Shown here: positions 6,129 to 24,071 of the stretch, one piece after another
How positions within the stretch are numbered: the stretch's first letter is position 1
How the letters are laid out: each line of letters opens with the position of its first letter
Source of the DNA: a virus
IMG/VR virus record: IMGVR_UViG_3300030102_000801
Coordinates: 2,496-26,566 of that record
Reading direction: 5' to 3' (one strand)
Length of the DNA: 24,071 bases
Program-made: the position numbers and the translations under genes
Notes under the pieces: generated by a model
The model's database searches: none
Told to the model about the DNA's origin: nothing
The model's input: the letters and a program-made list of their open reading frames with translations, nothing else

Positions 6129-8444
6129 ATGAAAAAAGTATTAGACAGATCAATGTTTAACAATAGACCAAAACGTTGGATTGGTGGCCCTATTTTAAAA
6201 TACAGTTCTAAAATAGCTAGAATAGGTGACACTGGTATAGGAAATAGAGTTGGTGATGCAATAGATAAAATTGATAAATTTGATTTAGGGTATGATAGAT
6301 ACAAAGGACCAGTTCCTCTAAACGCAAACAAAGGTTTTATTAGAGAAGCAATAATGCCTACAAGAAAAAGTGGTAAGGTTGCCACTTTAGGTTCTTATGG
6401 ACTTGTAGGATATGAAGCTCTTAAACCAGATGTTGCTGAAACAAAAGTACAAGAAAGTGTAGTTACAGATGATAACAATGTCATATCTAGTGAAACAATA
6501 AAAAATAAAAATATTACAACAAAAATAAAAGATGCCGCAGATAAAGTAACAACTGCAATCACAGGTCAACCAAACACTAACAAAGAAGAAAATTTTCAAG
6601 GTGGTAATGTTTTATCAGGAGACATATTTGCAACAAAAAATGAAGCACCTGATAACACAGTAGCTGCAGCAGAAAGCAATGACAACTTAAATATGTCTGG
6701 TCAATTTTCTCCATATCTGAATCCATCAAACGCAGGAGAAACAGCAGAGTTAGAAAAAATTGACATGACAAAGGTAACAGCTCTCAAAGAACAATTAAAA
6801 ATGTTACTTGGAGATACAGGTCAAAGACAAGATAATCTAAATTTATTGTTTCAATTAGGGTCAGCTTTGATGACAGGTAAAACATTAAAAGGTGGATTAG
6901 CGGGTTTCTTTGATGTTGCAGGTCAAGCAGGTTTAACTGTGTTACCACAAATGCTAGCTGCTTCTGAAAGAAGAAATGCTAGAGATCAAGAACTAGCACT
7001 TGCAGCTTTTGAATTAGTAAACGAACAACAAAATAAAGATCCTGCGTTTGGTGAAGGTAAAGGAACAATGATTTACCCTCACAAAATATCTTACAAAATG
7101 AACGAAGATGGTACTTTCTTTAAAGATGAAAATGATCAATTTGTTGCAATAGGATACACTCCTATTGGTTCAGGTTTTGGATTTAGTAAAGATCTACAAT
7201 CAAAAGCTATGATGGATGCCAATGCTTCACTATCAGCTCAAGGATTGCCACCACTGTTTACTTTATTAGATGCTGCTACAACAGGTGAGTCAGGAGCATT
7301 TGGTGCATTTGGTGTAGGTGAGTTTGGTGCAGAATCAAAATCTGGAAGAGATGAAAAAGAAAAATATGCTTCTGTGTTGGAAAGAGGTTTACCTAAAATT
7401 GCTGAGATGCTTAACTTTGTTACAATGTATGGCACAGATGGCACATTTAATTCTGATAAATATATAGGTCCAACTGGTTTATTTGCAGAGAAAGCAAGAC
7501 AAGTTTTAGCACCATGGGAACAAATAGCTGCTATCGCACCTTGGATGGGTAATAGTGAAGCAGAAGTTGGTAATAGCATGGCTAAACAATATGCTGAGGC
7601 TTTTGATCAATTAGAAAATTATTGGATGCAAAATATTGATAGTGACAATGGTAGATTGGTAGATGTATTTGAAACAGATAAATTAAACACGGATGGTACA
7701 TTTACAGACACAGAAGGTATTTATGCAGGGCAAACATTTACGTATCGTGACGAAGGTGGTAATTTAAGAACAGGCACTACTCAAGTTGGTGATATATATG
7801 AAACACCACTATCAATAAGAATTAAAATAGGTGCGCAACAATCACCTTGGAAAGAAGGTACTGTTGGTATCATGGAACAATACAAAAACCAAATTGGTAT
7901 GGTTGTTGCTCGTTACAAACAGCCTACTGGTCGTCTACTTGCTGACACAATTGCAGATTCAAAAAGAGATGTAGATTTAACACCAGGTTTCTTCTCAAAT
8001 CCAAACGACATTGTAAACAGACAATTTAGATATTTTAAAAATTTCTTAGAAGATTGGGTTCGTAACACTAGAGATGCTGGTATTGAAGTTACTCCAGAAT
8101 TGATAGATAAAAGATTTGGCGCAGCAGATGGATCAGGTGGTGGATTAGCTTTGATTAATAGAGCAATTACACAGTACAACATCTGGGGACTGTTAAAAGA
8201 ATCTCAAACAAATACGGCTATACTACCATCTTATGGCACATGGATTAAATTTCCTGGTGCTGTTTATCCTGGTGATGAAAATGGTAGCACGTTACAATCT
8301 ATAATAGATGGATTTAAAGAAGGTATAGAAGGTAGTGCTCAATCAGGCATAGACATGGGCAGTGGTTACTATGATGTTCCTGACGATTTTGATGCAGGTG
8401 AATACATAGATAACTATTTTGAACAATTGGATACTTTACAATAA
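6129..8444 (+). CDS. Large internal virion protein (771 aa), possible ejection protein
   Basis: The ATG lies six bases after the previous stop; no strong ribosome site is seen (GGGTCT precedes it). The N-terminal ~90 residues are basic; residues ~90-200 are Asn/Thr/Lys-rich and look disordered. Residues ~215-300 carry a helical segment with LFQLGSALMTGKTLKGGLAG and FFDVAGQAGLTVLPQMLAAS, which could be a membrane-active or packing helix pair. The remainder is mixed alpha/beta with many Gly and Asp turns, and the C-terminus is acidic. No enzymatic motif is visible. The size is close to T7 gp15 (747 aa) and it occupies the middle place of a three-gene set. The next gene starts at an overlapping TAATG. 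A virion role is likely; ejection is inferred. Confidence 0.55.
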   Translation: MKKVLDRSMFNNRPKRWIGGPILKYSSKIARIGDTGIGNRVGDAIDKIDKFDLGYDRYKGPVPLNANKGFIREAIMPTRKSGKVATLGSYGLVGYEALKPDVAETKVQESVVTDDNNVISSETIKNKNITTKIKDAADKVTTAITGQPNTNKEENFQGGNVLSGDIFATKNEAPDNTVAAAESNDNLNMSGQFSPYLNPSNAGETAELEKIDMTKVTALKEQLKMLLGDTGQRQDNLNLLFQLGSALMTGKTLKGGLAGFFDVAGQAGLTVLPQMLAASERRNARDQELALAAFELVNEQQNKDPAFGEGKGTMIYPHKISYKMNEDGTFFKDENDQFVAIGYTPIGSGFGFSKDLQSKAMMDANASLSAQGLPPLFTLLDAATTGESGAFGAFGVGEFGAESKSGRDEKEKYASVLERGLPKIAEMLNFVTMYGTDGTFNSDKYIGPTGLFAEKARQVLAPWEQIAAIAPWMGNSEAEVGNSMAKQYAEAFDQLENYWMQNIDSDNGRLVDVFETDKLNTDGTFTDTEGIYAGQTFTYRDEGGNLRTGTTQVGDIYETPLSIRIKIGAQQSPWKEGTVGIMEQYKNQIGMVVARYKQPTGRLLADTIADSKRDVDLTPGFFSNPNDIVNRQFRYFKNFLEDWVRNTRDAGIEVTPELIDKRFGAADGSGGGLALINRAITQYNIWGLLKESQTNTAILPSYGTWIKFPGAVYPGDENGSTLQSIIDGFKEGIEGSAQSGIDMGSGYYDVPDDFDAGEYIDNYFEQLDTLQ

Positions 8445-11400
8445 TGGCAATTTTAGATTTAGTTCCTGTAGCAAGAAGATTTGAAGATCGTAAACCAAAA
8501 GAACGTCTTAACACAGAATATGTAGGAATAGCACCTGGCGGTAGACCAATTACATCTGAAGAAAAAAATATACAAGACATAAGACAAAAATATATTGAAC
8601 CTGTTTTTGAACCAATAGGTGATGCTTTTTCAAGAGCTGGTAGAAGAATAGCTGATAAGTTTGTACCAGGACAACCATTCATGGATGGGTATAGACAAAA
8701 GAAAGCTGTTAAACAAGCTCAAGATATGCAGTTTGAAAAAAAACTTATATTAAGAAAAGAAAATCCAAAAGATGTTGTAAGAGCAAGAGCTTCTGAAATG
8801 TTTGAAGCAGCTGTAAAAAAATACGATGCCACTGGTAATCCTGAAGCATTAGTGCTTGCAGAAAACGCGATTCAAAAAATGATTATGGCTTCTGGTTATG
8901 CACCACAAGAGTTTGGTTTACCAGGAACAATAGATGTAGAGGCCGTAGATCCAGATCCTTATCAATTAGATACAACAAGACCAAATCCTTTTCCTGAGTT
9001 AGAGATTAGTGCAGAGATAGTAATGGGAACAGGTTTAGGTTTATATGGTGCCACTAACACAGGTGCTAGAAAATTTGCAAATGCATTTAAAAGAGGTGCA
9101 AAAATAGGATCAAGAGCTCCTGTACCAGGTGCATGGAAATTTGCTTCTAGTATTCTTGGTGGTGCTTTTGGGGTAGGTGCTGCTTACTTTGGATACGAAT
9201 TAGGATTAGACATGTTTAACTCTGCTAACAGAGCTAAAGCAATAACTGAAGGAAGAGATCCAAAAACATACATGATCAACAGACCTGGATTAGGTGCTAG
9301 ATTATATAGATCCGCGGACCTTGCTTTAACTGACGCTACACTAGGAACAATGATTCTTGGTTTTAGACCAGCTTATAATTCTTTACGTAACGTTGTTAGA
9401 AACAAAGTGGCAGGTGTTGGTCAATCGAAAGAAATGATTGAAAGAGGAGAAGCTCTTTTAGAAAAATTTCCTACAGGTGGGTATGGAACAGAAGGTAAAT
9501 TACCTGCTGAATTAGGTGGCGTATCAATACTTCCTGGTGGTCCAACTTTTCAATTAGGTAGAACAGGTAAACAAGATGTAGAAGAATTAAGAAGAGCAAT
9601 GTTTCCTTTTTATTGGGGCAACATTGAACGTGGTGCAGGTGAAATGCCTATACAAGGAACTGTATATTCAATAGCCACAGCTGGTAGACCAGCGTTTGGT
9701 ACTACAATAGAAACAGGCGGTAAATTTCCATACATAGGTGGTGGTATAAAAATGAATCTTGAAGAACAAGGAACAATACTTGTTGATTTATTTCATAACA
9801 TGTTTGCTGCTTATGGTCCTGTTGTTGCAACTAGAGAACTAATGTCAAACAATATATTAATGGCAAAAAGAAAAACAGCTGCAAGATATTTAGCTAATTT
9901 AAAAAGAAAATTAAATCGTTTTAGAAGACACGCGAGAGAAACAGGGTACACAATAGATGCTTCTCCAATAAGATTTGCAATGGAAGGAGTATTAGATGCT
10001 GCACCTAAGACAAGAAGAATGTTTGATCCTGATGGAAGATTGATAGAAAATGTAAACTATGGTGGCTACAGTGAAAAATTTGGATTAGACAATTTAACAA
10101 TGTTTCCTGTTGGAGAAAGACCTTTTTATCAATGGGTAAATGATACTATATCTGGTGCCGTTGGTAACAGACAAAAGTTTTCTGTAGTTGAATTAGAAAA
10201 ATTATTTAAAGACATTGAATATTACGCAAGAAGATACAAAGATAATCCTGATATAATGAATGCATTGACTAGAATAAAAATGTCAACAGAAGCATCACTT
10301 GGAACAGTTACAAATAGCGAAGCAAGAAGATTGTTAGACGATTTTGATAATTACGCAACCAACGGTATGTTATTGTTTGATAGTGCTGCAGCCAAAAAAT
10401 TTAATTCTGTTGATAGATACGGATTTACATTAAGATTAGCAGAGCAAGGACCAAAAGCAGCAGACGATTTATTTTCTACTGCTTGGGATGCAAATCATCC
10501 TTCTATAATTAGATCATTTAAAAACATAGTTGGACCTGATGTATTTAACCAAACAACAAGAAGATTTATACAAGATGCTTTTGAAGCTTCTGTAGAGGAA
10601 GGGCCAAAAGAAGGTATCAAGAAAATTAATTTTACTAAATTTAAAAATATACTTGGACTAGATGATAAAGCTAGTAATAGATATGCATCATTAAAAGAAA
10701 TGATGCCAGGTGCTAACCCTTCAGTTTCTGAAGGCAGAGTGGCTACTGCAACAGCTCCTGGTTCTTTTAATTCTGCAAAGTTTGATGCAACCATAAAACC
10801 AAACGGACTAATTCCTGGTGCTGTTATGGAAGGACCGATGAGCAGCACTGCTCCTCTTCCTACGGTAAATGATTTAGAGACATGGGTTAACATGGTTGAA
10901 GATGTTTTCAAATATGGTGTGCCTGATATCAGCACGTTTATCGCTAGACGTGCACAGATATCTGGATTACGTGGAGCAATCAAATCTTTTATGCCTTTAA
11001 GTGGTATATCTCCAGCAGCTCATGGTGGATCTGCGGCGGTTGCTGCTAGTACAGGATTTTTTGGTAGTGGTATACCAATAGGAGTTTTACTTGGAACTAT
11101 TCTAACAAGACACCTTGGTAAAATAATGACAAATCCTATCAACATGCGTGTATACAAAAATGCTATTGATTACAAATTACCAGAACGTGCAAGAAATGCA
11201 GCCATGGTAAGACTGTTTCATATTTTTAGAAATGAAATAGAGCAGATCGATAAAGAATTAGAGGCGATGGAATATGAGGCAACTAGACCTGCTCAAGAAA
11301 GACCAAGAACAATAATGGAAGGCATAAGGGACAGAATCACAGAGGGGGTTTCTGGTGCAGCTGAAATGATTATGCCATCTAGACCTCAACCACAAGCTGA

Positions 11401-11617
11401 TGCTAGCCCTGTTATACCAGATATACCAGTTGAACGTGAAACAACAAGTGTGAATAACAATCCAGTAGAAGGATCTTCATTAGCTCAAAGTAATGTTCTC
11501 ACACCAGGTGCAGCACAAGCACTTTATACTGGTGACACAGATGCAGCTTTAGCTGCACAGTTTAATACACCCACAATGGCAGCAGAGGGAGGTTTGATAA
11601 GCCTTAAAAAAACATGA
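8444..11617 (+). CDS. Very large internal virion protein (1057 aa), possible ejection protein
   Basis: Longest gene in the window, coupled to its neighbours (TAATG before, ATGA after). Basic, helical N-terminus; hydrophobic Gly/Ala-rich segments at residues ~185-205 and ~230-250 (FASSILGGAFGVGAAYFGYE) and again at ~864-885 (AAVAASTGFFGSGIPIGVLL), each long enough to touch or cross a membrane. Long charged helical regions lie between. The last residues (MAAEGGLISLKKT) repeat a short Gly-Gly motif also seen in the 404-aa virion protein. No lytic transglycosylase motif such as that of T7 gp16 was recognised. Size, position and membrane-prone segments fit the largest ejection protein of a podovirus; this is inference from architecture. 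Confidence 0.55.
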   Translation: MAILDLVPVARRFEDRKPKERLNTEYVGIAPGGRPITSEEKNIQDIRQKYIEPVFEPIGDAFSRAGRRIADKFVPGQPFMDGYRQKKAVKQAQDMQFEKKLILRKENPKDVVRARASEMFEAAVKKYDATGNPEALVLAENAIQKMIMASGYAPQEFGLPGTIDVEAVDPDPYQLDTTRPNPFPELEISAEIVMGTGLGLYGATNTGARKFANAFKRGAKIGSRAPVPGAWKFASSILGGAFGVGAAYFGYELGLDMFNSANRAKAITEGRDPKTYMINRPGLGARLYRSADLALTDATLGTMILGFRPAYNSLRNVVRNKVAGVGQSKEMIERGEALLEKFPTGGYGTEGKLPAELGGVSILPGGPTFQLGRTGKQDVEELRRAMFPFYWGNIERGAGEMPIQGTVYSIATAGRPAFGTTIETGGKFPYIGGGIKMNLEEQGTILVDLFHNMFAAYGPVVATRELMSNNILMAKRKTAARYLANLKRKLNRFRRHARETGYTIDASPIRFAMEGVLDAAPKTRRMFDPDGRLIENVNYGGYSEKFGLDNLTMFPVGERPFYQWVNDTISGAVGNRQKFSVVELEKLFKDIEYYARRYKDNPDIMNALTRIKMSTEASLGTVTNSEARRLLDDFDNYATNGMLLFDSAAAKKFNSVDRYGFTLRLAEQGPKAADDLFSTAWDANHPSIIRSFKNIVGPDVFNQTTRRFIQDAFEASVEEGPKEGIKKINFTKFKNILGLDDKASNRYASLKEMMPGANPSVSEGRVATATAPGSFNSAKFDATIKPNGLIPGAVMEGPMSSTAPLPTVNDLETWVNMVEDVFKYGVPDISTFIARRAQISGLRGAIKSFMPLSGISPAAHGGSAAVAASTGFFGSGIPIGVLLGTILTRHLGKIMTNPINMRVYKNAIDYKLPERARNAAMVRLFHIFRNEIEQIDKELEAMEYEATRPAQERPRTIMEGIRDRITEGVSGAAEMIMPSRPQPQADASPVIPDIPVERETTSVNNNPVEGSSLAQSNVLTPGAAQALYTGDTDAALAAQFNTPTMAAEGGLISLKKT

Positions 11618-11817
11618 GTTTGAGAGATATAATGTGGATACTTGGTATATTTGTAGCACTTGGTGCAACATGGGGGATGACATCTCAAAGAATAAATGCT
11701 ATGGAGCGTGATATTGATAGAATAGAAGAAGCTTTAATTTTGTTTACAAAAATGGAAGCTAGAATTGCTGTCATAGAAAACGAAATAAAAAATATAAATA
11801 AAAAATTGGATAGATAA
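11614..11817 (+). CDS. Small membrane protein with coiled coil, candidate holin or spanin-like lysis protein
   Basis: The protein has 67 residues. One transmembrane helix (residues ~6-22, IMWILGIFVALGATWGM) is followed directly by a heptad-like charged helix to the end (INAMERDIDRIEEALILFTK, then EARIAVIENEIKNINKKLDR). There is no cleavable signal. The start overlaps the previous stop (ATGA), and its TAA overlaps the ATG of the endolysin gene (TAATG). A single-TM protein immediately before a muralytic enzyme is the usual place for a holin; a one-TM helix with a long coiled coil could equally be an inner-membrane spanin-like protein. The lysis role is inferred from context and topology. Confidence 0.62.
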   Translation: MSLRDIMWILGIFVALGATWGMTSQRINAMERDIDRIEEALILFTKMEARIAVIENEIKNINKKLDR

Positions 11818-12323
11818 TGAAAGAAAATTACAACAAATGTTTAGAAACTATACTACATCATGAAGGTGGCTATGTTAACCATCCCGAGGACCCAGGTGGA
11901 GAAACAAACTTAGGTGTTACAAAAAGAGTGTACGAAGAACACGGTGGCACAAAAGACATGAAAGATTTAACAGTAGAAGACGTAGCACCAATATACAAAA
12001 AAGGTTACTGGGATAAGATGAAAGGTGATGACTTACCTAGCGGTTTAGATTTATGTGTATTTGATTTTGGTGTCAATGCAGGACCAGGACGTGCTGCCAA
12101 ATTTTTACAAGAAATGATTGGCACTACAGTAGATGGCGGCATAGGACCTATGACCTTGGCTAAAGTAAATGAGTATGTAGATAGCAATGGTTTGGAAGAA
12201 ACTATAAAACAATACCAAGTAGCTAGACACGAATATTATGAGGGTCTTTCTACGTTCAAAACATTTGGAAAAGGTTGGACTAGAAGAGTAAATGAAACCA
12301 CTGAATTAGCACTAGAATTATAA
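11817..12323 (+). CDS. GH108-family endolysin (N-acetylmuramidase)
   Basis: The protein has 168 residues, typical for one GH108 lysozyme domain plus its C-terminal peptidoglycan-binding part. The family signature is visible as HHEGGYVNHPEDPGGETNLG (residues 14-33), with the expected catalytic Glu at E16 followed by GGY. A second conserved block, CVFDFGVNAGPGRAAKFLQE, lies at ~79-98, followed by a VDGGIGPMTLAKV motif like the peptidoglycan-binding half. There is no signal peptide, so export would depend on a holin, consistent with the coupled membrane protein upstream. Expected reaction: hydrolysis of the MurNAc-GlcNAc beta-1,4 bond at the end of infection. Confidence 0.92.
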   Translation: MKENYNKCLETILHHEGGYVNHPEDPGGETNLGVTKRVYEEHGGTKDMKDLTVEDVAPIYKKGYWDKMKGDDLPSGLDLCVFDFGVNAGPGRAAKFLQEMIGTTVDGGIGPMTLAKVNEYVDSNGLEETIKQYQVARHEYYEGLSTFKTFGKGWTRRVNETTELALEL

Positions 12324-12332
12324 TACAATCTG

Positions 12333-12341
12333 TGCTATAAT
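12333..12341 (+). promoter_or_regulatory. Extended -10 promoter element TGcTATAAT
   Basis: Perfect TATAAT at 12336-12341 with TG one base upstream (12333-12334), inside a 24-base gap between the endolysin and nuclease genes. No good -35 box at 16-18 bases. The expected start (~12348) coincides with the GTG of the nuclease gene, implying a leaderless message if used. Confidence 0.45.
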
Positions 12342-12347
12342 GTCGCA

Positions 12348-13016
12348 GTGCAAATTATAGAGAAATATAATTACGCAGAATTAAAAAGAAAAGAAGGCGA
12401 TGGTAGGTTATATCTTACACCTGATGGTGAAGCATTACCTTCCGTTACTACAATATTATCTAAAACAAAAGATAAGTCTTTTCTTAAAAAATGGCGTGCA
12501 AAAGTAGGAGAAGAAAAAGCTGAACAAATCATTCGTGATTCTGCTCAGATAGGAACCGCGCTCCACCTATATATAGAACGTTTTGTGAACGGTGATAAAT
12601 ACAAAGATCTTACAGACGTCGGTGTTCAAGCAGAAAAAATGGCACAAAAGATAATAGATGAGGCTTTTAGTGACATAACAGAAATATGGGGATCAGAGGT
12701 GCATTTGTATAGCCCTGGTAAATATGCAGGCACAACTGACATGGTTGGTGTATATAAAGATAGACCTACTATCATAGACTTTAAACAAACTAACAGGCCA
12801 AAGAAACGTGAATGGGTGCAAGATTATCTAATGCAACTAGCTGCGTACGCCCAGGCACACAACGAGTTATTCAATACAGAGATAGAACAAGGAGTTGTTC
12901 TTATGTGTTCTCGTGATTTAACGTTCCAAAGATTCGAATTGACAGGTGAGAATTTTGTACGCGCTACTAATGCATTTATGAAAAAATTGGATGCATATAA
13001 TGCAAGTATAATCTAA
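12348..13016 (+). CDS. PD-(D/E)XK superfamily nuclease (RecB/Cas4-like exonuclease)
   Basis: The protein has 222 residues. Seen in order: PSVTTILSKT near residue 30, GTALHLYIERF (~69-79) in the place of the helical motif of MGME1/RecB-like nucleases, then WGSEVHLYSPGKYAGTTDMV with an acidic residue near 117 and D131, and IIDFKQT with D144-x-K146 as the core D-x-K. A YLMQLAAYAQAHNE helix (Q-x-x-x-Y-like) follows. This is the complete core of a PD-(D/E)XK exonuclease. Likely role: DNA end resection in replication, recombination or host DNA breakdown. No ribosome site precedes the GTG start; the promoter element directly upstream would make it leaderless. It ends one base from the convergent helicase gene. 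Confidence 0.82.
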   Translation: MQIIEKYNYAELKRKEGDGRLYLTPDGEALPSVTTILSKTKDKSFLKKWRAKVGEEKAEQIIRDSAQIGTALHLYIERFVNGDKYKDLTDVGVQAEKMAQKIIDEAFSDITEIWGSEVHLYSPGKYAGTTDMVGVYKDRPTIIDFKQTNRPKKREWVQDYLMQLAAYAQAHNELFNTEIEQGVVLMCSRDLTFQRFELTGENFVRATNAFMKKLDAYNASII

Positions 13017-13017
13017 A

Positions 13018-14454
13018 TCAAATCCACTTAGATAATTCTTCGCCACTAATTTCTTTTGCAATGTTTACCTTGTTTTTTAATGCTTTAATTATTTTTTCAT
13101 CTACTGTGCCTTTTGACACCATGTCAATATATAACACAGGATTTTTTTGACCTATACGATGAGCACGATCTTCTGATTGTATTCTTTTTTCTAGGTCGTA
13201 ATTATTGGAGTAATATATTACCGTGCTAGCAGCCGTCAATGTAATACCATATCCACCTGTTTGTGTATTACCAATAAAAAAACGACAATCATTTTTACTG
13301 TTTTGAAAATCATATATGCAACGTTGTCTGTCCTCTGGTTTGGTAGCACCATAATATGTACAATATGATGTGGGCCCATATTCTTTTTTTATAGCTTTTT
13401 CTATACTCAATATGTCGTGTATATAATTTGCCCAGATGATAGCTTTACCAGTAGTTTCTGATAATATTTGCATCAATTCATCAACACGGTTGCTTTTTAA
13501 ATCCATTGTTTCACCACCGTCTGTTTTCATATGTCCACACGTTATTTGATGTAATCTCATTAATTGAGTCAAAACATTTACTGCTGTCAATGACTCTCCT
13601 TTTATAATTGTCATTGCATTCTTTTTCATTTCTTCATATGCTTTCTTTTGTTCATCTGTGAGTTCAACAGTTCTTTTTACAAAAGTTTTTTCAGGCAGAT
13701 CCAAACAATCTTTCTTTAATATGCGATAAGAATGAGGCGACACAATTTGACCCAATTGTTTTAAATTTTTAAATTTTACAATCTTCTGGTACTTATGTGT
13801 ACCACCAGCTGCGTTAGCTGTTATGACAACTGCATACCTGGTACGAAAAGCATAATAACTAGACTGCCCAAGTATTTCTGGATCAAGGAAATCCATCTGT
13901 GACCACAAATCCATTGGCGATTGTGTTACTGGAGATCCTGTAAGTATTCTTCTGTATTTTGCTTCCTTACTAAGAGCCAATATATTCTTTGTTCTTTTTG
14001 CTTGTGGGTTTTTAATTGTGGTGCTTTCATCAATTATCATCATTGACTTGCCAATGAGAAACAATTTAGCATAATAACAACCTTTTTTTGTAGACAGAGA
14101 CTCTACGTTCATAACGAATATTTTTAATTTAAAATTTTCTACGTTACGTATGGCTTTTAATTGTTGTTCGTATTTTTCTGTAATGTTTGGTTTCCAAGCT
14201 AAAACATCTTTTTCAATGTAATCAGGAACGTGAACTGGGATTTCTTGATCTACCCAGTTCATGTATGTTCCTTTAGGAGCAACCACAAGTAACCGATCTA
14301 TTCTTCCTTTGTTGTATAATATACATGCATTATCTAATGCTATTTTAGTTTTGCCTGTACCCATTTCAGCAAAAATGGCAAATGATTCTTTATTCCAACA
14401 TTTTTTTAACGCATCTTTCTGATGCTCATATGGCTCAGTTTTAAATTTATACAT
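13018..14454 (-). CDS. SNF2-family superfamily 2 helicase/ATPase
   Basis: The only minus-strand gene. I choose the ATG at 14454 (478 aa) over the in-frame ATG at 14481, because a promoter -10 box occupies 14485-14480 and its start would fall near 14473, leaving a short leader with AAAGA. Motifs: EMGTGKT (residues ~30-36, Walker A), LLVVAPKGTYMNW (Ia), MMIIDESTTIKN (~139-150, DEAH-box equivalent with D-E-S-T), RRILTGSPVTQSPMDLWSQM (III), AIIWANY (IV), GGYGITLTAAS (V) and QSEDRAHRIGQ (~425-435, VI), which is diagnostic of SNF2. The C-terminus (TVDEKIIKALKNK) is also typical. No accessory DNA-binding domain is seen. Expected: ATP-driven translocation on double-stranded DNA, for replication, recombination or protein displacement. 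Convergent with the nuclease gene. Confidence 0.9.
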   Translation of the reverse strand: MYKFKTEPYEHQKDALKKCWNKESFAIFAEMGTGKTKIALDNACILYNKGRIDRLLVVAPKGTYMNWVDQEIPVHVPDYIEKDVLAWKPNITEKYEQQLKAIRNVENFKLKIFVMNVESLSTKKGCYYAKLFLIGKSMMIIDESTTIKNPQAKRTKNILALSKEAKYRRILTGSPVTQSPMDLWSQMDFLDPEILGQSSYYAFRTRYAVVITANAAGGTHKYQKIVKFKNLKQLGQIVSPHSYRILKKDCLDLPEKTFVKRTVELTDEQKKAYEEMKKNAMTIIKGESLTAVNVLTQLMRLHQITCGHMKTDGGETMDLKSNRVDELMQILSETTGKAIIWANYIHDILSIEKAIKKEYGPTSYCTYYGATKPEDRQRCIYDFQNSKNDCRFFIGNTQTGGYGITLTAASTVIYYSNNYDLEKRIQSEDRAHRIGQKNPVLYIDMVSKGTVDEKIIKALKNKVNIAKEISGEELSKWI

Positions 14455-14470
14455 AAGTCTTTCTTTATTC

Positions 14471-14499
14471 TTGAAACGCATTATATCATATGGTATAAT
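14471..14499 (+). promoter_or_regulatory. Rightward promoter for the replication operon
   Basis: TTGAAA at 14471-14476, a 17-base spacer, and TATAAT at 14494-14499 preceded by TGg: the closest match to sigma70 consensus in the window. Predicted start ~14506, 13 bases before the ATG at 14519. It heads a block of tightly packed + strand genes that runs to the window end. Confidence 0.68.
14480..14499. repeat. Near-perfect 20-bp palindrome joining two divergent -10 boxes
   Basis: The top strand reads ATTATATCATATGGTATAAT. It equals its own reverse complement except for one symmetric base pair (positions 7 and 14). The two TATAAT boxes form its arms and CATATG its centre. It may be only the symmetry of back-to-back promoters, or an operator for a dimeric regulator. 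Confidence 0.75.
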
Positions 14500-14507
14500 A
14501 TAATCAA
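14480..14507 (-). promoter_or_regulatory. Leftward promoter for the SNF2 helicase gene
   Basis: On the minus strand: TTGATT (14507-14502), a 16-base spacer, and TATAAT (14485-14480) preceded by TGa (extended -10). Predicted start ~14473, 19 bases before the ATG at 14454. The -10 lies over the alternative upstream start codon, which argues against translation from there. Confidence 0.6.
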
Positions 14508-14518
14508 GAAATAAAAAT

Positions 14519-14824
14519 ATGACAGTTTACGTACTACAAGAGATGGGAAGAAATATTAGGTCAGCTGAAAAGTTTGGTGATTTAAAAGTATTACTACCGG
14601 ACAATAAACAAATAGTTTTATCTGCTGGACCTCTTACTCATAAATTAAAAAAAGAGTTATCCACATTTTGTGATGATGACTACTTGCTTTTGATTGGTGA
14701 TCCTGCTATTATTGCTTTAGCTGGCGCAGTCGTTAGTGAGATGAATAGAGGTAAATTTAAAGTGTTAAAGTGGGATCGAGATGAGAAACGATACTACGAC
14801 ATAGAAATAGATTTGAAAGGATAA
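14519..14824 (+). CDS. Unknown 101-aa protein, first gene of the replication operon
   Basis: Starts 13 bases after the predicted transcription start, with only an A-rich leader and no clear Shine-Dalgarno sequence. Predicted mixed alpha/beta: N-terminal VYVLQEM strand, DLKVLLPDNKQIVL hairpin, a Lys-rich helix, then DDYLLLIGDPAIIALAGAVV (~53-72), a hydrophobic strand-turn-helix, and a basic C-terminus (FKVLKWDRDEKRYYDIEI). No catalytic motif, Cys pair or membrane anchor is seen. I do not recognise a family. As the first product of the strongest promoter it may be made early; a regulatory or host-directed role is possible but unproven. The next gene starts two bases after its stop. Confidence 0.6.
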   Translation: MTVYVLQEMGRNIRSAEKFGDLKVLLPDNKQIVLSAGPLTHKLKKELSTFCDDDYLLLIGDPAIIALAGAVVSEMNRGKFKVLKWDRDEKRYYDIEIDLKG

Positions 14825-14825
14825 T

Positions 14826-15395
14826 ATGACAAGTTTAGACCCAAGAGATTTAGATTTAGTTACCCAAATGAAAATGGATGCGGGCAGCACGGCCCAGGAC
14901 AACATGGGTAAGATAGGTGCTGTTGCAAATGATGTAGCAGATACTGATAAAGAGATTGCTGATTTAGAAGAGCAATTAAAAAAGAAAAAAGATTACAAAA
15001 AACATTTAGCAGAAAATGTTCTACCTAACTTATTTGCAGAAGTAGGTTTGTCAGAGTTAAAATTGGCAGACGGTAGACATCTTAAAGTTACCAACTACTA
15101 TGGTGCTTCAATCAAAGATACAAAGAAAGAAGCAGCATTTACGTGGTTAAGAGACAATGGATTTGGTGATTTAATAAAGAACCAAGTCAGTTGTAGCTTT
15201 GGAAGGAATGAAGATGAGAAAGCTAAGTCGTTGATAGATACTTTGAATGACAAAGGTTATCAATCAATGCAACGTGAATGGGTCGAACCTTCCACCCTTC
15301 GCGCATTCATACGAGAGCAGCATGAAGCAGGTAAGCAATTACCTATGGATTTGCTTGGGGCTTTCGTAGGACAAAAAACAACGATAAAAGACTAA
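14826..15395 (+). CDS. Unknown 189-aa coiled-coil protein of the replication operon
   Basis: The ATG at 14826 follows the previous stop at once; AAAGGA (14816-14821) is its ribosome site. Residues ~37-60 form a charged coiled coil (DTDKEIADLEEQLKKKKDYK). Then comes a beta segment LKLADGRHLKVTNYYGASIK, a helical region, and a conserved-looking C-terminus (WVEPSTLRAFIREQHEAG, then LPMDLLGAFVGQKTTIK). The order coiled coil, then a 'degree of match to a surface' type beta hairpin, recalls phage Gp157-like or Gam-like accessory replication proteins, but the resemblance is architectural only and I assign no function. It sits between the unknown leader gene and the SSB-like gene, so a link to DNA replication or end protection is a reasonable guess. 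Confidence 0.58.
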   Translation: MTSLDPRDLDLVTQMKMDAGSTAQDNMGKIGAVANDVADTDKEIADLEEQLKKKKDYKKHLAENVLPNLFAEVGLSELKLADGRHLKVTNYYGASIKDTKKEAAFTWLRDNGFGDLIKNQVSCSFGRNEDEKAKSLIDTLNDKGYQSMQREWVEPSTLRAFIREQHEAGKQLPMDLLGAFVGQKTTIKD

Positions 15396-15407
15396 AGGAG
15401 AATGGCC

Positions 15408-16217
15408 ATGGCAAAAGCACAGGCAGTCGCTACTAAAGCGGCAAAATTAGATCTAGCAGTTCTTGCTACTGATTCTAAAGATGCAAGTGGTTTCGGTAAT
15501 CTTGACATGTCAAGAGACATCGCGATCCCTTACATCAACATACTACAATCCAATAGTCCACAACTTAATCCGCAAAAGGCGGAGTACGTTGATGGTGCTA
15601 AAATAGGACAGTTCTATAATACTGTCACACAAGAGGTCAGTGATTCACTTAACGTGATTCCTGTTCTTTACCAACTACGATACGTAGAATGGAAACCACG
15701 TGAGCAAGGTGGTGGATTCGTTGAATCACATCATGCTGATAGTGGCATTCTTAGTAAAACTAAACGTGATCAAATGACGTTTAAAGATGTGTTACCTAAT
15801 GGTAATTACATTGCAACCACTGCTTATCACTATGTTATGGTGCAAGGCAAAGATGGTGCATGGTCCCAGGCAGTTGTCAGCATGACATCTACTCAATTAA
15901 AAAAGAGTAGACGTTGGAACAGCTTAATGTTGAGCCAGAAAGTTAATGGTCCATCGGGAAGTTTTACACCACCAACATATGCTATCATTTACAAGCTATC
16001 TACAGTTAGCGAGTCTAATGATCGTGGTAGTTGGTTTGGTTATCAAGTTGAGAGAGCAGGGCAGTTAGAGGACGCTGGCGTTTATAACGAGGCAAAATCA
16101 TTTTCAACTGCCGCATCACGAGGAGAAGTAGAAGCTAAACCTATGTCAGAGGGGGAGCCTGTAAAAGAGGCACCACAATCTAACAATAAAGAAAGCCAAG
16201 AAGACGTACCGTTTTAG
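15408..16217 (+). CDS. SSB-like replication protein with acidic D-V-P-F tail
   Basis: AAAGGAG at 15394-15400 is seven bases from the ATG at 15408 but only one base from the ATG at 15402, so I choose 15408 (269 aa). The body is beta-rich: DIAIPYINILQSNSPQLNP (~38-56), IPVLYQLRYVEWKPREQGGG with aromatic and basic residues, and SFTPPTYAIIYKLSTV. The C-terminal ~45 residues are acidic, disordered and end SQEDVPF, matching the D-D-D-I-P-F tip by which bacterial SSBs bind partners. Marine phage homologues are often called putative ssDNA-binding proteins. Likely coats single-stranded DNA at the fork. No OB-fold motif can be proved by eye. Confidence 0.62.
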   Translation: MAKAQAVATKAAKLDLAVLATDSKDASGFGNLDMSRDIAIPYINILQSNSPQLNPQKAEYVDGAKIGQFYNTVTQEVSDSLNVIPVLYQLRYVEWKPREQGGGFVESHHADSGILSKTKRDQMTFKDVLPNGNYIATTAYHYVMVQGKDGAWSQAVVSMTSTQLKKSRRWNSLMLSQKVNGPSGSFTPPTYAIIYKLSTVSESNDRGSWFGYQVERAGQLEDAGVYNEAKSFSTAASRGEVEAKPMSEGEPVKEAPQSNNKESQEDVPF

Positions 16218-16227
16218 GTAGGTCTTC

Positions 16228-16236
16228 TGCTATACT
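16228..16236 (+). promoter_or_regulatory. Possible extended -10 element TGcTATACT
   Basis: TATACT at 16231-16236 with TG at 16228-16229, in the 28-base gap before the primase gene. No -35 box. The ribosome site GGAGG (16237-16241) abuts it, so a start at ~16243 would leave that site out of the message. May be chance. Confidence 0.28.
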
Positions 16237-16245
16237 GGAGGTTTA

Positions 16246-17736
16246 GTGGAAAGATTCAAAGTAATATTTGAAGGCTTAGACGTGGCTTATGGTCAGCATC
16301 AATCCGAAGGGAGGCGTGCTGACGGTAAGCAGGAGGGTAAATCATATATTGTCAAACAAGTTGTTACAGAAGAATTATGGACGGCGCACCTTAATGGTGT
16401 GGGTCCTTCTCTTGGTATCATCCCTATTAGGGCTGACAATACTGTCAGTTGGGGCTGTATTGATATTGATACTTATCCTATTGACTACAAAAAAATAATA
16501 AACAAAATTAGAAATTTACAGTTACCATTGGTGCCATGCAGATCCAAAAGTGGAGGCATGCATATATTTTTATTTCTTAAAAACCCAGTATCCGCCAGAT
16601 TAGTACGAGAGAAATTGCGAGAGGTTGCATCCGGTCTAGGATACTCCTCTGTAGAAGTATTCCCCAAGCAATCAACCATACTAATAGAAAAAGGAGATCT
16701 AGGTAATTTTTTAAATCTTCCATATTATAATTCAAAAAGTACAACTAGATATGCGTATAAAGATGATGGAACAGCGGCGACCCTGCCAGAGTTCTATTCT
16801 TTATACGATAAATATGTTGTAGAAGAAATAGACAAAGTTGCAATTCAGGTATCTGATGATGTCATAAAGGATGGTCCACCATGTTTACAACAACTTTGCG
16901 CACAAGGTTTTCCTGAAGGCACACGAAACAACGGCTTGTTCAATATTGGTGTTTACTTACGTAAGTTTGATCCAGACAATTGGAAAACGTTATTAGAAAA
17001 ATACAACCAGGATTACATGACACCACCTTTGTCAGCATCAGAGGTAGTGACAGTGCAAAATCAATTAGAGAAAAAAGAATATAATTATAGATGTAAAGAA
17101 CCACCTATTAGTTCTTACTGCAATGCAAAAGTTTGTAGAGGTAGAAAATATGGTGTAGGTGGCAATGGTACATCGTTAGAGTTCAGCGCATTAACTAAAT
17201 TAGAAACAGATCCACCTGTGTGGTTCTTGGATGTTGGTGACGCAAGAATGGAATTACAAACAGAAGAGCTGCAGATACAAACTAAGTTTCAAAAGAAATG
17301 TATGAACAGTTTGAATCACATGCCTGCTCTTGTAAAACAGTCAGTATGGCAGGAGATTATTGAGAGATTGATGCAAAATCTTATCAAGATTCCTGTGTCT
17401 GATGATGGGTCATTGGCCGGTCAGTTTGAGGCTCACCTCCAGGAGTTTTGTACTGATCGTGCCCAGGCTCTAAATCGTGACGAATTATTACTACGTAAAC
17501 CTTGGACAGAAGATGGCGTGACGTGGTTTAGACTTAAAGATCTACAAGATTATCTTACTCGTAACAAGTTTACATATTTTAACACAGGTCAACTTGTTCA
17601 AGCATTAAGACATTTAAAAGGCAAGAGTGAGAAATATAACTTAAAAGGTAGAACTGTACGTGTGTGGGGTGTACCTGCATATCAACAACAAGATTCTGCA
17701 TTTGACATAAAGGAGGTAGATGGTGCGCCGTTCTAG
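16246..17736 (+). CDS. Archaeo-eukaryotic-type (AEP) DNA primase
   Basis: The protein has 496 residues; GTG start five bases after GGAGG. The AEP core is clear: GCIDIDTYP with D73 and D75 (metal-binding D-x-D), RSKSGGMHIFLF with H106 (motif II), and FPKQSTILIEKGDLGNFLNL, the third conserved block of this primase group. A second domain begins with PPCLQQLC and GTRNNGLFNIGVYLRK and holds C213, C218, C283, C292 and C297, a candidate zinc or iron-sulfur site like that of PriCT/PriL-type modules. The C-terminal ~190 residues are helical and look like a winged-helix or partner-binding part; no helicase motifs. The protein ends VDGAPF, like the SSB-like neighbour. Makes primers for the family A polymerase downstream. 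Confidence 0.85.
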   Translation: MERFKVIFEGLDVAYGQHQSEGRRADGKQEGKSYIVKQVVTEELWTAHLNGVGPSLGIIPIRADNTVSWGCIDIDTYPIDYKKIINKIRNLQLPLVPCRSKSGGMHIFLFLKNPVSARLVREKLREVASGLGYSSVEVFPKQSTILIEKGDLGNFLNLPYYNSKSTTRYAYKDDGTAATLPEFYSLYDKYVVEEIDKVAIQVSDDVIKDGPPCLQQLCAQGFPEGTRNNGLFNIGVYLRKFDPDNWKTLLEKYNQDYMTPPLSASEVVTVQNQLEKKEYNYRCKEPPISSYCNAKVCRGRKYGVGGNGTSLEFSALTKLETDPPVWFLDVGDARMELQTEELQIQTKFQKKCMNSLNHMPALVKQSVWQEIIERLMQNLIKIPVSDDGSLAGQFEAHLQEFCTDRAQALNRDELLLRKPWTEDGVTWFRLKDLQDYLTRNKFTYFNTGQLVQALRHLKGKSEKYNLKGRTVRVWGVPAYQQQDSAFDIKEVDGAPF

Positions 17737-18025
17737 ATTACCAAAGATAAAGAAAGGAATGTGGGCAGAACAATTAGCAGTGTTGCATCTTATAGACAAA
17801 GGATACTTTGTATTTAAAAATTTATATGGTGTTGGCCCAGCTGATCTTATAGCAATAAACGAAAAAGGCGCCGTAGAAATATACGATGTAAAAAGTGAAA
17901 GTTATCGTAAGACATGGAAACCTGGCACACGTATATGTAGAAAGTTAACACAAGAACAAAAGAAACTAAAGATGAAGTTTATTTTTGTAGAAAGAGATGG
18001 AACATGCAAAGTAAGACAAAGATAA
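17720..18025 (+). CDS. Small PD-(D/E)XK nuclease, Hjc/VRR-NUC-like Holliday junction resolvase
   Basis: The protein has 101 residues. AGGAGG at 17711-17716 precedes both the ATG at 17720 and an in-frame GTG at 17723; the latter has better spacing, so the true start may be one codon in. Core residues: KGMWAEQLAV with E17, GVGPADLIAIN with D42, and IYDVKSES with D56-x-K58, the PD-(D/E)XK set in the order E-D-D-x-K seen in archaeal Hjc-type resolvases and VRR-NUC domains. A basic C-terminus could bind DNA. Expected: structure-specific cutting of branched DNA during replication and packaging. Overlaps the primase by 17 bases and the helicase by 22. Confidence 0.8.
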   Translation: MVRRSRLPKIKKGMWAEQLAVLHLIDKGYFVFKNLYGVGPADLIAINEKGAVEIYDVKSESYRKTWKPGTRICRKLTQEQKKLKMKFIFVERDGTCKVRQR

Positions 18026-19509
18026 TATTAGGACCACCAGGAACAGGTAAGACGCACAACTTGTTAAATTTAGTTGAGCAAGAATTAGCAAAGGGCACAT
18101 CGCCTGATCGCATAGCGTTTGTTGCATTCACCAAGAAAGCGGCAACCGAGGCTCGTGACCGGGCAATGAAGAAGTTTAAATTAGAGGAGCAACATTTACC
18201 TTATTTTAGAACGCTGCATTCATTTGCATTTCATCAATTAGGATTAACAAAGTCGGAGGTTATGTCACGTGACAATTACAAAGAGTTTGCAAAAACGTTT
18301 GGTATGGATTTAGGATCTGTAACAGATGGTGCGGAGTCTGGTGGTGTCGTCACTACAGATAACATTTTAATCAATGAAATAAATCTAGCACGCATGAAGT
18401 GCATGGATTTAGAACAACATTATAACACTTCTAATTTACAGGATATGTCATGGCATTCTTTACTTCGTGCACAGAGATCATTGGAAGAATTTAAGAAAAA
18501 GAAAGAGGTATTTGATTTTACAGACATGATAGAATTGTATTTAGAGTCTGGTCCTGTACCAAAATTAGAAGTTGTATTTGTGGATGAAGCTCAAGATTTA
18601 TGTAAATTACAGTGGCGAATGATAAACAAACTGACAGAAAATGCAAGAAAAGTATATGTCAGTGGTGATGATGATCAAGCTATATACAATTGGGCTGGTG
18701 CAGATGTACGATACTTTATAAAATTACCAGGTGAGGTAGAAACACTAAAACAGTCTTTTAGGTGTTCTAAGGTTATACAAAATTTATCAGGTAGAATAAT
18801 AAATAGAGTAAAAGTAAGAAGAGCAAAACAATGGAAAGGAACTGACAGAAATGGATTGGTGCAATACCATGCTTATCCAGATAGTGTTAATTTAAGAGAT
18901 CCAGGTAGTTGGCTTGTAATGGCTAGAACAAACTATATGCTTGACGAGATAGAACGTGACATAAGATTACAAGGTATGTTGTACAAAAGAAACAATAAAT
19001 TACCTATATCTGCAAAATTATTAAATGCTGTAGAAGCGTGGAAAAAATTAAATAGTGGTGAAATTGTACCCTTGACAGATATAAAAGACATTTATTCATA
19101 CATGTCCAGTCAAATAGGAATAGAAAGAGGGCACAAAAATCTTAAGATGGCTGACAAAGAACAATATGAATTAGAAGAACTTGTAATGCATCATGGATTA
19201 TTAATGGGTGGTAGACCTTGGGATGTAGCATTTGATAAAGTTGGTAACAGAGATAAAGAATATTTACGTGCCATAGAAGTTAGAGGCACAATATCAAAAG
19301 ATCCTAAAATAAATATAAGCACTATACATGGTGCAAAAGGTGGAGAAGCAGACAACGTTATGCTTCTCACAGATCTATCTAGAAAATCACAAGAAGCTAT
19401 GGAAAGAGATTCGGATGACGAATGCCGTGTGTTTTATGTAGGAGCAACACGTGCTAGAGAAAATCTACATGTAATACAACCACAACGAGATGGAGGGTTT
19501 ATAATATGA
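18004..19509 (+). CDS. UvrD/Rep-like superfamily 1 DNA helicase
   Basis: The protein has 501 residues, short for UvrD (about 720) and close to phage Dda-size helicases. All SF1 motifs are present: GPPGTGKT (10-17), FVAFTKKAATEARDR (Ia), RTLHSFAF (Ib), VVFVDEAQDL (~189-198, Walker B D-E-A-Q-D), GDDDQAIYNWAGAD (III), LKQSFRCSKVIQNLSG (IV), ISTIHGAKGGEADNVMLLTD (V, with the H-x-A-K-G-x-E-A loop of UvrD-type enzymes) and FYVGATRARENL (~474-485, VI). Expected 3'-to-5' unwinding, likely the fork helicase because no DnaB- or T7 gp4-type helicase is seen here. Starts 22 bases inside the nuclease gene, and its stop overlaps the next gene start (ATGA). Confidence 0.92.
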   Translation: MQSKTKIILGPPGTGKTHNLLNLVEQELAKGTSPDRIAFVAFTKKAATEARDRAMKKFKLEEQHLPYFRTLHSFAFHQLGLTKSEVMSRDNYKEFAKTFGMDLGSVTDGAESGGVVTTDNILINEINLARMKCMDLEQHYNTSNLQDMSWHSLLRAQRSLEEFKKKKEVFDFTDMIELYLESGPVPKLEVVFVDEAQDLCKLQWRMINKLTENARKVYVSGDDDQAIYNWAGADVRYFIKLPGEVETLKQSFRCSKVIQNLSGRIINRVKVRRAKQWKGTDRNGLVQYHAYPDSVNLRDPGSWLVMARTNYMLDEIERDIRLQGMLYKRNNKLPISAKLLNAVEAWKKLNSGEIVPLTDIKDIYSYMSSQIGIERGHKNLKMADKEQYELEELVMHHGLLMGGRPWDVAFDKVGNRDKEYLRAIEVRGTISKDPKINISTIHGAKGGEADNVMLLTDLSRKSQEAMERDSDDECRVFYVGATRARENLHVIQPQRDGGFII

Positions 19510-19799
19510 CCAAAGAAGAGATACTAGAAGAGGCTAGTAGGTTAGTAGCCAAAGATAGAAATCTATCACATGGCGATGCATTTAGTAATCATGCAGAGAT
19601 AGCAGAATATTGGAATATTTTTTTAGATAAAAAATTACAACCAATGACTAGTATTACTGCAGATGACGTTGCTTTGATGATGATATTATTAAAAATATCT
19701 AGAAACAATCAAGGTAGAAAAATAAATATGGATAATTTTGTCGACATGGCAGGTTATGCAGCAATAGCAGGAGAGATAATTGACTCAGGATCTATATAA
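19506..19799 (+). CDS. DUF6378-type phage protein
   Basis: The protein has 97 residues. The segment RNLSHGDAFSNHAEIAEYWN followed by ITADDVALMMILLKISR and DNFVDMAGYAAIAGEII matches the pattern I associate with DUF6378, a small helical phage family (H-G-D near the N-terminus, D-V-A-x-M-M-x-L-x-K-x-x-R, D-x-x-D-x-x-G-Y-A). The acidic helices superficially recall MazG-like pyrophosphohydrolases, but I cannot place a full metal site. Its start overlaps the helicase stop and its end overlaps the polymerase start by 20 bases, so it is embedded in the replication operon. Function unknown; a nucleotide-pool or replication accessory role is possible. Confidence 0.75.
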   Translation: MTKEEILEEASRLVAKDRNLSHGDAFSNHAEIAEYWNIFLDKKLQPMTSITADDVALMMILLKISRNNQGRKINMDNFVDMAGYAAIAGEIIDSGSI

Positions 19800-21624
19800 A
19801 ACAGTCACGTCACATTGGGTAGCACCCACGGAATTTCCGGTCATAGAAGGACGTGTGGCGATTGACTTAGAAACATGTGACCCAGATTTAATAAAACACG
19901 GACCAGGTTGGCCAACGTTGAGAGGTAAGGTGATTGGTATAGCTATAGCCACTGCGTCCTTTAAAGCATATTATCCTATTGCACACGAGGGTGGTGGCAA
20001 TATGGAACAACACAAAGTCGTAAGTTACATAAAATCTATTTGTGATAATGATGCGATAGAAAAAGTATTTCATAATGCACAGTATGATATTGGTTGGCTG
20101 TGGACTTTAGGAATACAGGTCAAGGGTAAAGTGCATGACACTATGGTGGCAGCCGCTTTGATAGATGAAAACAGATACTCTTATACACTAAATAGTATTG
20201 TACACGAGTATCTAGGTGAATTTAAAAATGAGCAAAAATTAAAAGAAGCAGCAGAAGCTTTTGGTGTTGATGCAAAATCAGAGATGTATAAATTACCAGC
20301 AGAGTTTGTTGGTGAATATGCAGAGGCTGACGCAGATCTTACATATAAATTACATGAGAAATTAACTTGGGAGATAGTTAAAGACAATCTTACCACAGTG
20401 TATGATGTTGAGTGTAGACTCATTAATGTAATATTTCATATGACAAGACGTGGTGTTAGATTTGACACTGTTAAATGTGAGCAGTTGAATACAAAATTTC
20501 ACAACAAAGAAAAGAAGTTGATGAAACGTATTAAAGATCTTACAAATCTTAACGTAGAGATATGGGCTGCAGCTTCTATAGCAAAAGCATTTGACGCATT
20601 GAATTTACCTTATGAAAGAACTGACAAAACAGGTTCGCCATCATTTACAAAGATGTTTCTTACCGATCATCCTCATGAATTACCTAGGTTGATTATGCAG
20701 GCAAGAGAACTAAATAAATTACGAGGAACATTTTTATATGGCCTCATGAATTATACAGATGATGGTAGAATACACGCACACATTAATCAAATTAGGTCTG
20801 ATACTGGTGGTACTGTTAGTGGTAGGTTCTCTTATAACCATCCTAATTTACAGCAGGTACCCAGCCGTGGTCAGTTTGCTAAAGACGTTAGGAAATTATT
20901 CATTCCTGAGATGGGTGAATATTGGCTCAAGGCAGATTACTCGCAACAAGAACCAAGACTCTTAACACATTGGGCGTGCCTCGTGGACCAACCAGGTGCA
21001 CACGATGTAAAAGAAGCATATCAAAAGAAAGACTTAGACTTTCATCAACAAACAGCAGACATGGCAGGAGTGGATAGAAGATTAGCAAAAACAATTGGTC
21101 TGGGTGTTATGTATGGCATGGGGTATAATAAACTTGCTCGTGAATTGGATCTAGAACCACAGGAAGCAAAAGAAATGTTGAAAGATTTCCGTGGTAAAGT
21201 TCCTTTTATGCAGGGTATGTTGGAAGCAGTTATGAATCGTGCTAATTCAAAGGGTATAATTAGAACTTTACTTGGACGTAAATGTAGATTTGATCTATGG
21301 GAACCTACACAATGGGGCGTACATAAACCATTACCTTTAAATCAAGCTAAGGTAGAATATGGCGACGCTATAAAAAGATATGGCACGTACAAAGCGCTTA
21401 ACAGATTGATTCAAGGATCAGCTGCAGATCAAACAAAAAAGGCTATGGTGGACGTTTATGAGCAATTAAACGTTGTTCCATTAATACAAGTACATGACGA
21501 ACTTGATTGTTCTGTTAAAGATGAAAGACAGGCTAATCAAATAAAAGAAGTCATGGAGACATGTGTAAAATTAGAAGTGCCATCCAAAGTTGATATAGAT
21601 CTAGGAGAAAATTGGGGACAATGA
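19780..21624 (+). CDS. Family A DNA polymerase with 3'-5' exonuclease, Leu at the Pol I 762 position
   Basis: The protein has 614 residues from a TTG start; AGGAGA at 19769-19774 at good spacing supports it. No 5' nuclease domain. The exonuclease domain is intact: AIDLETCD (D29, E31), HNAQYDIGWL (N99, D103) and YAEADAD (Y180, D184). Polymerase motifs: A, KADYSQQEPRLL with D386 (family usual D-Y-S-Q-I-E-L-R); B, RRLAKTIGLGVMYGMG with R433, K437, L441, Y445; C, VHDEL with D573. L441 aligns with E. coli Pol I F762, a residue affecting nucleotide selection and speed, and is a variant reported as common in marine virus polymerases. Replicative polymerase of the phage. The stop overlaps the next gene (ATGA). 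Confidence 0.94.
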   Translation: MTQDLYKTVTSHWVAPTEFPVIEGRVAIDLETCDPDLIKHGPGWPTLRGKVIGIAIATASFKAYYPIAHEGGGNMEQHKVVSYIKSICDNDAIEKVFHNAQYDIGWLWTLGIQVKGKVHDTMVAAALIDENRYSYTLNSIVHEYLGEFKNEQKLKEAAEAFGVDAKSEMYKLPAEFVGEYAEADADLTYKLHEKLTWEIVKDNLTTVYDVECRLINVIFHMTRRGVRFDTVKCEQLNTKFHNKEKKLMKRIKDLTNLNVEIWAAASIAKAFDALNLPYERTDKTGSPSFTKMFLTDHPHELPRLIMQARELNKLRGTFLYGLMNYTDDGRIHAHINQIRSDTGGTVSGRFSYNHPNLQQVPSRGQFAKDVRKLFIPEMGEYWLKADYSQQEPRLLTHWACLVDQPGAHDVKEAYQKKDLDFHQQTADMAGVDRRLAKTIGLGVMYGMGYNKLARELDLEPQEAKEMLKDFRGKVPFMQGMLEAVMNRANSKGIIRTLLGRKCRFDLWEPTQWGVHKPLPLNQAKVEYGDAIKRYGTYKALNRLIQGSAADQTKKAMVDVYEQLNVVPLIQVHDELDCSVKDERQANQIKEVMETCVKLEVPSKVDIDLGENWGQ

Positions 21625-23265: not shown

Positions 23266-23437
23266 TAAAAGCTGTGTCCGCGAAGGGCCACAATATAAAT
23301 GCTATGTGTGCAAACAATGGTTTGATAGACTTTTATATTGGTTGGACAAACAATTTAACCCGGATCAAAAATATAGAATAATATTTTTATGTGGTCCAAA
23401 ATGCGCAACGGAGAAATATGAGCGAAGTAATAAGTAA
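23255..23437 (+). CDS. Small putative zinc-binding protein (Cys2-Cys2)
   Basis: I choose the GTG at 23255 (60 aa): GAAGG lies six bases upstream and it overlaps the previous stop by 11 bases, whereas starts further upstream lie deep inside the neighbour. Two Cys pairs, CYVC (near residue 16) and CGPKC (near residue 47), flank an aromatic, basic middle (WFDRLLYWLDKQF), which fits a single zinc ribbon or treble-clef-like unit. Basic C-terminus (ATEKYERSNK). No family recognised. Zinc-ribbon proteins of this size in phages can act as nucleic-acid-binding adaptors. Overlaps the oxygenase gene by 20 bases. Confidence 0.6.
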   Translation: MEYNKSCVREGPQYKCYVCKQWFDRLLYWLDKQFNPDQKYRIIFLCGPKCATEKYERSNK

Positions 23438-24056: not shown

Positions 24057-24071
24057 CGAAGAAATGGCTGT
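24037..24071 (+). CDS. Start of a further gene, cut by the window end
   Basis: ATG at 24037 with GGAG at 24025-24028 upstream, overlapping the oxygenase gene by 20 bases, the same arrangement as the two junctions before it. Only MNHWRNNEEMA can be read. Too short to assign; the frame is open to the last base. Confidence 0.5.
   Translation, partial: MNHWRNNEEMA

Follow-up and report, generated by a model that had tools for sequence, protein, structure and literature searches.

Two opposed sigma70-type promoters sharing 37-38 bp probably form a nested bidirectional promoter between the helicase gene and the replication operon of an ocean phage group

In a virus represented by a record of 26,566 bases we found two near-consensus sigma70-type promoters which face in opposite directions and are interleaved at positions 14471-14507, that is within about 38 bases of a 64-base gap. 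The gap separates a leftward helicase gene from the rightward replication operon that lies back to back with it. The site is probably a nested bidirectional promoter in which two sigma70-type promoters share 37-38 bp, a reading that comes from the DNA sequence and from its comparison among related phages. All coordinates refer to the window, i.e. the whole stretch of 24,071 nucleotides that was analysed, which is part of the record. The features are as follows.

13018-14454, minus strand: SNF2-family helicase gene, ATG at 14454 (Pfam SNF2-rel_dom, E 1.6e-26; Helicase_C)
14455-14473, minus strand: predicted leader of the helicase mRNA with ribosome-binding-like AGAAAG; start at about 14473 predicted from the -10 spacing
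14471-14476, plus strand: -35 box TTGAAA of the rightward promoter (sequence, promoter scan; kept across relatives)
14480-14499, no strand: palindrome ATTATATCATATGGTATAAT, 20 bp, 9 of 10 pairs, centred on CATATG (14487-14492)
14485-14480, minus strand: -10 box TATAAT of the leftward promoter, with TG-a before it (14487-14488, CA on the plus strand)
14486-14493, no strand: central 8 bp, which contain CATATG with back-to-back TG elements and are not themselves kept palindromic
14494-14499, plus strand: -10 box TATAAT of the rightward promoter, with TG-g before it (TG at 14491-14492)
14507-14502, minus strand: -35 box TTGATT of the leftward promoter (sequence, promoter scan, relatives)
14506-14518, plus strand: predicted leader of the replication operon mRNA, AAGAAATAAAAAT; start at about 14506 predicted from the -10 spacing
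14519-14824, plus strand: first gene of the rightward operon, Pam3 gp32-like (PF23992; Pfam E 1.8e-27)
14826-21624, plus strand: remaining genes of the replication operon (gp33-like, gp34-like, AEP primase, UvrD helicase, family A DNA polymerase)

The boxes and spacings of the two divergent promoters were confirmed as given in the original prediction, with 17 bp between TTGAAA and TATAAT in the rightward promoter and 16 bp between TTGATT and TATAAT in the leftward one. The elements follow each other in the order -35 (plus), -10 (minus), 8 bp, -10 (plus), -35 (minus) within 37-38 bp. The -10 boxes are separate, 8 bp apart, and form the arms of the 20-bp palindrome with one mismatched pair, which had also been predicted correctly; CATATG in its centre reads CA-TA-TG, two TG elements placed back to back. 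If a distance of 7 nt between -10 box and start is assumed, the predicted starts are about 33 bp apart. Each start is no more than about 20 bases away from the beginning of a gene, and each -35 box is found on or beside the predicted start of the opposite promoter, with the leftward TTGATT overlapping the predicted rightward start. Both predicted leaders begin A-rich and carry AAGAAA or AGAAAG, which we read as ribosome-binding sequences on the basis of what we take to be the anti-Shine-Dalgarno sequence of the host. As both leaders carry them, the outer inverted repeat would be explained.

The helicase reading frame could also open at 14481, inside the minus-strand -10 box; since the relatives align from the methionine at 14454, this ATG is the conserved start. 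Judged by the helicase, the nearest deposited relatives are phage 023Pt_psg01, Pelagibacter phage HTVC027P, DSL-LC04 and Pelagibacter phage HTVC023P. A scan of 20 window proteins revealed no recognisable DNA-binding regulator, the record being a fragment. In DSL-LC04 a small protein encoded between primase and UvrD (positions 1405-1662 of that locus) is annotated as 'RNA polymerase sigma-G factor'. The reading frame in the same place of the window (17720-18025) gave no sigma match in Pfam or PHROGs. Near the window end (22129-24056) a PAPS-reductase-like gene is followed by a 2OG-Fe(II) oxygenase gene.

The palindrome as a signal by itself was rejected. In 200 simulated windows of the same dinucleotide content, 20-mers with at least 9 of 10 pairs are expected 1.1 times per window by chance and are present in 66% of the windows; ATTATATCATATGGTATAAT is the only one in the whole window. 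Interleaved promoter pairs as good as this one should arise by chance 0.085 times per window; among 64-base gaps the fraction containing one is 0.0001 with window composition and 0.00075 with the gap shuffled. It is therefore the promoter pair, not the palindrome, which is unusual. In a promoter scan of 8000-24071 the rightward site is the single match with 11 of 12 positions and the leftward site is one of five with 10 of 12; they are the only matches with TG. The pattern TTGA-N18..20-TATAAT has only two matches in the 26,566-base record, namely these two sites. It also matches a few other places in the records of six other long relatives, in numbers similar to the reversed control; we therefore rank the pair as the genome's strongest site only within the window's own record. 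A chance AT-rich palindrome, of which about one with 9 of 10 pairs is expected per window, is nevertheless hardly credible as an explanation, because 79 of 80 relatives conserve the site to a degree that exceeds that of synonymous positions; for the boxes, chance is already refuted.

These relatives, referred to as clade A, are the best 80 of 378 viral loci encoding a relative of the helicase. The promoter cassette was found ahead of the replication operon in 79 of them; it is missing from locus L079 and cut by the contig end in L040. Counting the window, there are 80 cores, 44 of them distinct, and the outer span of the -35 boxes from edge to edge is 38 bp in 49 and 37 bp in 31. These spans were taken from the core search; automatic -35 pairing was wrong for part of the clade. 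Exact TATAAT occurs on both strands in 33 of the 44 distinct cores, and part of the span-37 cores have weak -10 boxes. The cassette is not directly beside the helicase gene in 14 loci, in 13 of which it lies upstream of an inserted gene. On the other side, the core is followed by the gp32-like gene in 70 of 80 cases (by an N-terminal criterion) and by other small reading frames in six, four being uncallable; in four of the cores that lack it as the direct neighbour, the gp32-like gene is found further on. Since the cassette is kept despite insertions on either side, it belongs to the junction and not to one gene. The gene inserted between promoter and helicase in 13 of the 80 relatives comprises about 160 codons. 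The small reading frames between promoter and gp32-like gene, seen in six loci (e.g. MNKNYQQTGG...), often have a GGAG ribosome site.

Core identity was compared with that of four-fold degenerate sites of the same helicase genes, for pairs with equal span and at least 80 shared four-fold sites. The divergent subset comprises 320 span-38 pairs, not independent of each other, with a four-fold identity below 0.35 (mean 0.30). In these pairs, identity amounts to 0.89 and 0.90 for the -10 boxes, 0.73 and 0.87 for the -35 boxes, 0.46 for the central 8 bp and 0.34 for the rest of the spacers. Conservation of the core exceeds that of the four-fold sites in 320 of the 320 non-independent pairs. Also in clade A, the best -10 box found without constraint lies 17 bp from its own -35 box in 28 (plus) and 29 (minus) of the 33 distinct span-38 cores. 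The comparison shows selection acting on what we read as promoter boxes and on their spacing, not on the centre or the spacers. Boxes similar to TTGACA and TATAAT that are under selection at 16-18 bp, as in a sigma70 promoter, are evident in clade A and weak in clade B described below.

It had been proposed to ask in the gaps of related phages whether the palindrome or only the promoter boxes are conserved. The boxes are; the centre of the palindrome is not. The four central pairs do not covary, being complementary in 5, 17, 16 and 24 of the 33 distinct span-38 cores as against 9.4, 17.7, 18.2 and 22.9 expected for independent columns. Fewer than three of these pairs match in 31 of the 49 span-38 loci, and TG is present on both sides in just 13 of the 33 distinct cores. 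As the boxes are kept while the centre drifts without covariation, the palindrome appears to be a by-product of two back-to-back extended -10 elements rather than a conserved operator.

The more distant clades B (psg01-like), C (HTVC027P-like) and D were represented by 80 loci each, the best 80 of several hundred per scan. They keep facing -35 boxes at altered distances, mostly 33-38 bp. In clade B 71 of 80 loci have a near-perfect TTGACA...TGTCAA with a span of 37, together with TATATA-like sequence spaced by 8 bp; among 40 distinct cores a consensus -10 box at 16-18 bp is rare according to a weight matrix (fractions of 0.12 and 0.03). Clade D shows spans of 33, 34, 37 and 38 in 20, 33, 9 and 10 of 80 loci, with weak -10 boxes at spans 33 and 37. 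The best unconstrained -10 box lies 17 bp from its own -35 box in 22 (plus) and 16 (minus) of 25 distinct cores with span 34, and in 8 (plus) and 8 (minus) of 10 with span 38. Between these two spans the distance from a -10 box to the opposite -35 box shifts by 4 bp and the promoter spacing stays constant. Constant spacing between -10 and -35 with a changed arm distance fits a promoter, whose own spacing is fixed, unlike a rigid dimer operator, whose arm distance is fixed. In six of seven clade D cores, picked by pattern, 24 of 24 consensus positions are present.

In clade C overlapping -10 boxes (by 4 bp) fit best in 59 of 78 regions. Typically TTTACT-18-TATAAT-like sequence on one strand is combined with TTGACT-17-TATATA on the other, and the predicted starts are about 21 bp apart when 7 nt from -10 box to start are assumed. 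This is close to the published bidirectional arrangement of E. coli. In HTVC027P-like relatives an inverted CTTTCT...AGAAAG surrounds the overlapping -10 pair, flanked by the -35 boxes TTTACT and TTGACT. The promoter pair is absent from the cultured phages HTVC023P and DSL-LC04. This counts against the nested promoter, as do the weak -10 boxes of clade B, of spans 33 and 37 in clade D and of part of the span-37 cores in clade A.

An operator, formed by the palindrome or by the TTGACA...TGTCAA arms, through which a dimeric repressor or activator governs transcription both ways, is an unlikely explanation of the site. It would account for the dyad symmetry, for the long perfect arms of some clade D cores and for the TTGAC/GTCAA arms that are almost invariant in clades B and D. 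However, these arms are the sigma70 -35 consensus, the drifting central pairs lack compensatory changes, and the proteins scanned in the window include no recognisable regulator. The inter-arm distance moreover ranges from 32 to 38 bp, unlike in a rigid dimer site. On a FastTree tree of the helicases the span label changes at least 26 times, a count which is inflated by recombination between gap and gene and by near-ties of 37/38 and 33/34. This tree retains 138 of 322 rows after thinning, 19 without label, and its outgroup branches are long. The drifting centre, together with the lack of a recognised regulator among the 20 scanned proteins, leaves the dimeric repressor operator of the original prediction unsupported. 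A regulator may still bind the TTGACA...TGTCAA arms in addition to the polymerase.

That one promoter is functional and the other a passenger of the -10 symmetry, as are many divergent starts of E. coli, is quite improbable. According to the available text of PMC10268837, -10 symmetry alone can yield divergent starts by an 18-bp logic, and clade B has a poor -10 box on one side. On the other hand, conservation extends to both -35 and both -10 boxes, the latter being separate and not shared, and both predicted starts are close to a gene. A replication origin or recombination site is highly improbable. The gap is AT-rich and adjoins replication genes, and deposited relatives were opened at this gap; yet there is no switch of GC skew at the gap, the skew just following the reversed helicase gene.

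TG is absent from all 14 clade A rows with a perfect rightward -35 box TTGACA and present in 42 of the 66 others. In five independent pairs on the tree the two features go opposite ways in four to five and the same way never (p 0.06). Clade A thus weakly suggests a compensation between TG and -35 box, against which stand the span-38 cores of clade D, where perfect -35 boxes occur together with TG in 8 of 10.

We also looked for the arrangement elsewhere. A strict symmetric pattern whose centre was left free over 2-20 bp matched 19 viral stretches, all 19 with the 8-bp gap and 18 at the same gene pair. In a collection of prokaryote genomes it matched 12 stretches, with a gap of 8 in seven, 7 in two, 6 in two and 12 in one. 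Of the seven matches with a gap of 8, five come from Treponema, where several adjoin genes homologous to each other, and one consists of a (TA)n run, which leaves about three independent cases; a Ruminococcus match also has the 8-bp gap. A loose pattern with its centre left free occurs in at least 120 viral stretches, 80 of which were listed. Here 10 of 82 matches have a gap of 8, four of these being the present locus, and nine have a gap of 5; among these matches there is no clear enrichment of the gap-8 geometry outside the locus. The same symmetric 38-bp promoter pair occurs at five Treponema loci, several of which have it between a flavin-reductase-like gene and a small one. This small gene resembles a regulator and, if it is one, would be a further point in favour of an operator.

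The divergent promoters of bioA/bioB in E. coli are controlled by the BirA repressor. Bidirectional promoters were recently described in E. coli and Salmonella by Warman, Grainger and co-workers (PMC12825309, PMC10268837, here according to their available parts). In the accessible text of PMC12825309 these promoters share a -10 box, their starts are most often 18 and also 10 or 23 bp apart, and one polymerase sterically excludes the other. For five tested E. coli promoters the same text gives a basal activity too weak for polymerase competition unless boosted. The present site resembles them in its pseudo-symmetric core between divergent, functionally linked genes and, as we infer, in exclusion; the symmetry of the boxes and the full overlap of both promoters are seen in the sequences of window and relatives. 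It differs by separate -10 boxes 8 bp apart with a recognisable -35 box on both sides, and by predicted starts about 33 bp apart instead of 10, 18 or 23. With this geometry and no shared -10 box it is a variant and not a member of the strict class. The overlap of divergent promoters in one short region is also found in bioA/bioB, one of the five promoters in the text of PMC12825309; unlike there, no regulator was recognised among the scanned window proteins and the predicted starts are not within 10-23 bp. Lysis-lysogeny regions of the lambda PR/PRM type likewise have divergent, potentially interfering promoters between phage genes; here no repressor gene was recognised on either side, there are no tandem operators, and the leftward gene encodes a helicase. 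Our literature searches found no report on promoters in this phage group, and the available text of a paper on HTVC023P-type phages (PMC9599517) does not contain the word 'promoter'.

After entry, the host RNA polymerase would bind the site in either orientation, one molecule at a time. One orientation would give the helicase mRNA and the other the replication operon mRNA, in a ratio that would depend on how strong the two box pairs are relative to each other, and both gene sets may be expressed early and in rough balance. That two polymerases could hardly bind together, as originally suggested, is supported by the geometry and by the steric exclusion described for E. coli (available text of PMC12825309). 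Judging from the geometry, probably only one promoter is usable at a time. Alternation, low noise and balance may be the regulatory outcome. A regulated switch is unsupported, the leftward gene encoding a helicase and not a repressor.

Tentatively, and with a little less than even confidence, we propose that these sites form a distinct nested class: two full promoters within 33-38 bp, each -35 box on the start of the other, kept in a large group of ocean phages. Within this group the inter-arm distance would have been retuned at a constant 17-bp spacing, and one lineage would have converted to overlapping -10 boxes. Such an arrangement would oblige the helicase and replication genes to fire in strict alternation, and it may recur in bacteria (Treponema, Ruminococcus, with the 8-bp gap). 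The case also shows that palindromic sequence between divergent promoters is not necessarily an operator. The few hundred related sites are a natural series, some with perfect boxes both ways, for which competition should be strong, and they lend themselves to tests of how exclusion and noise depend on geometry.
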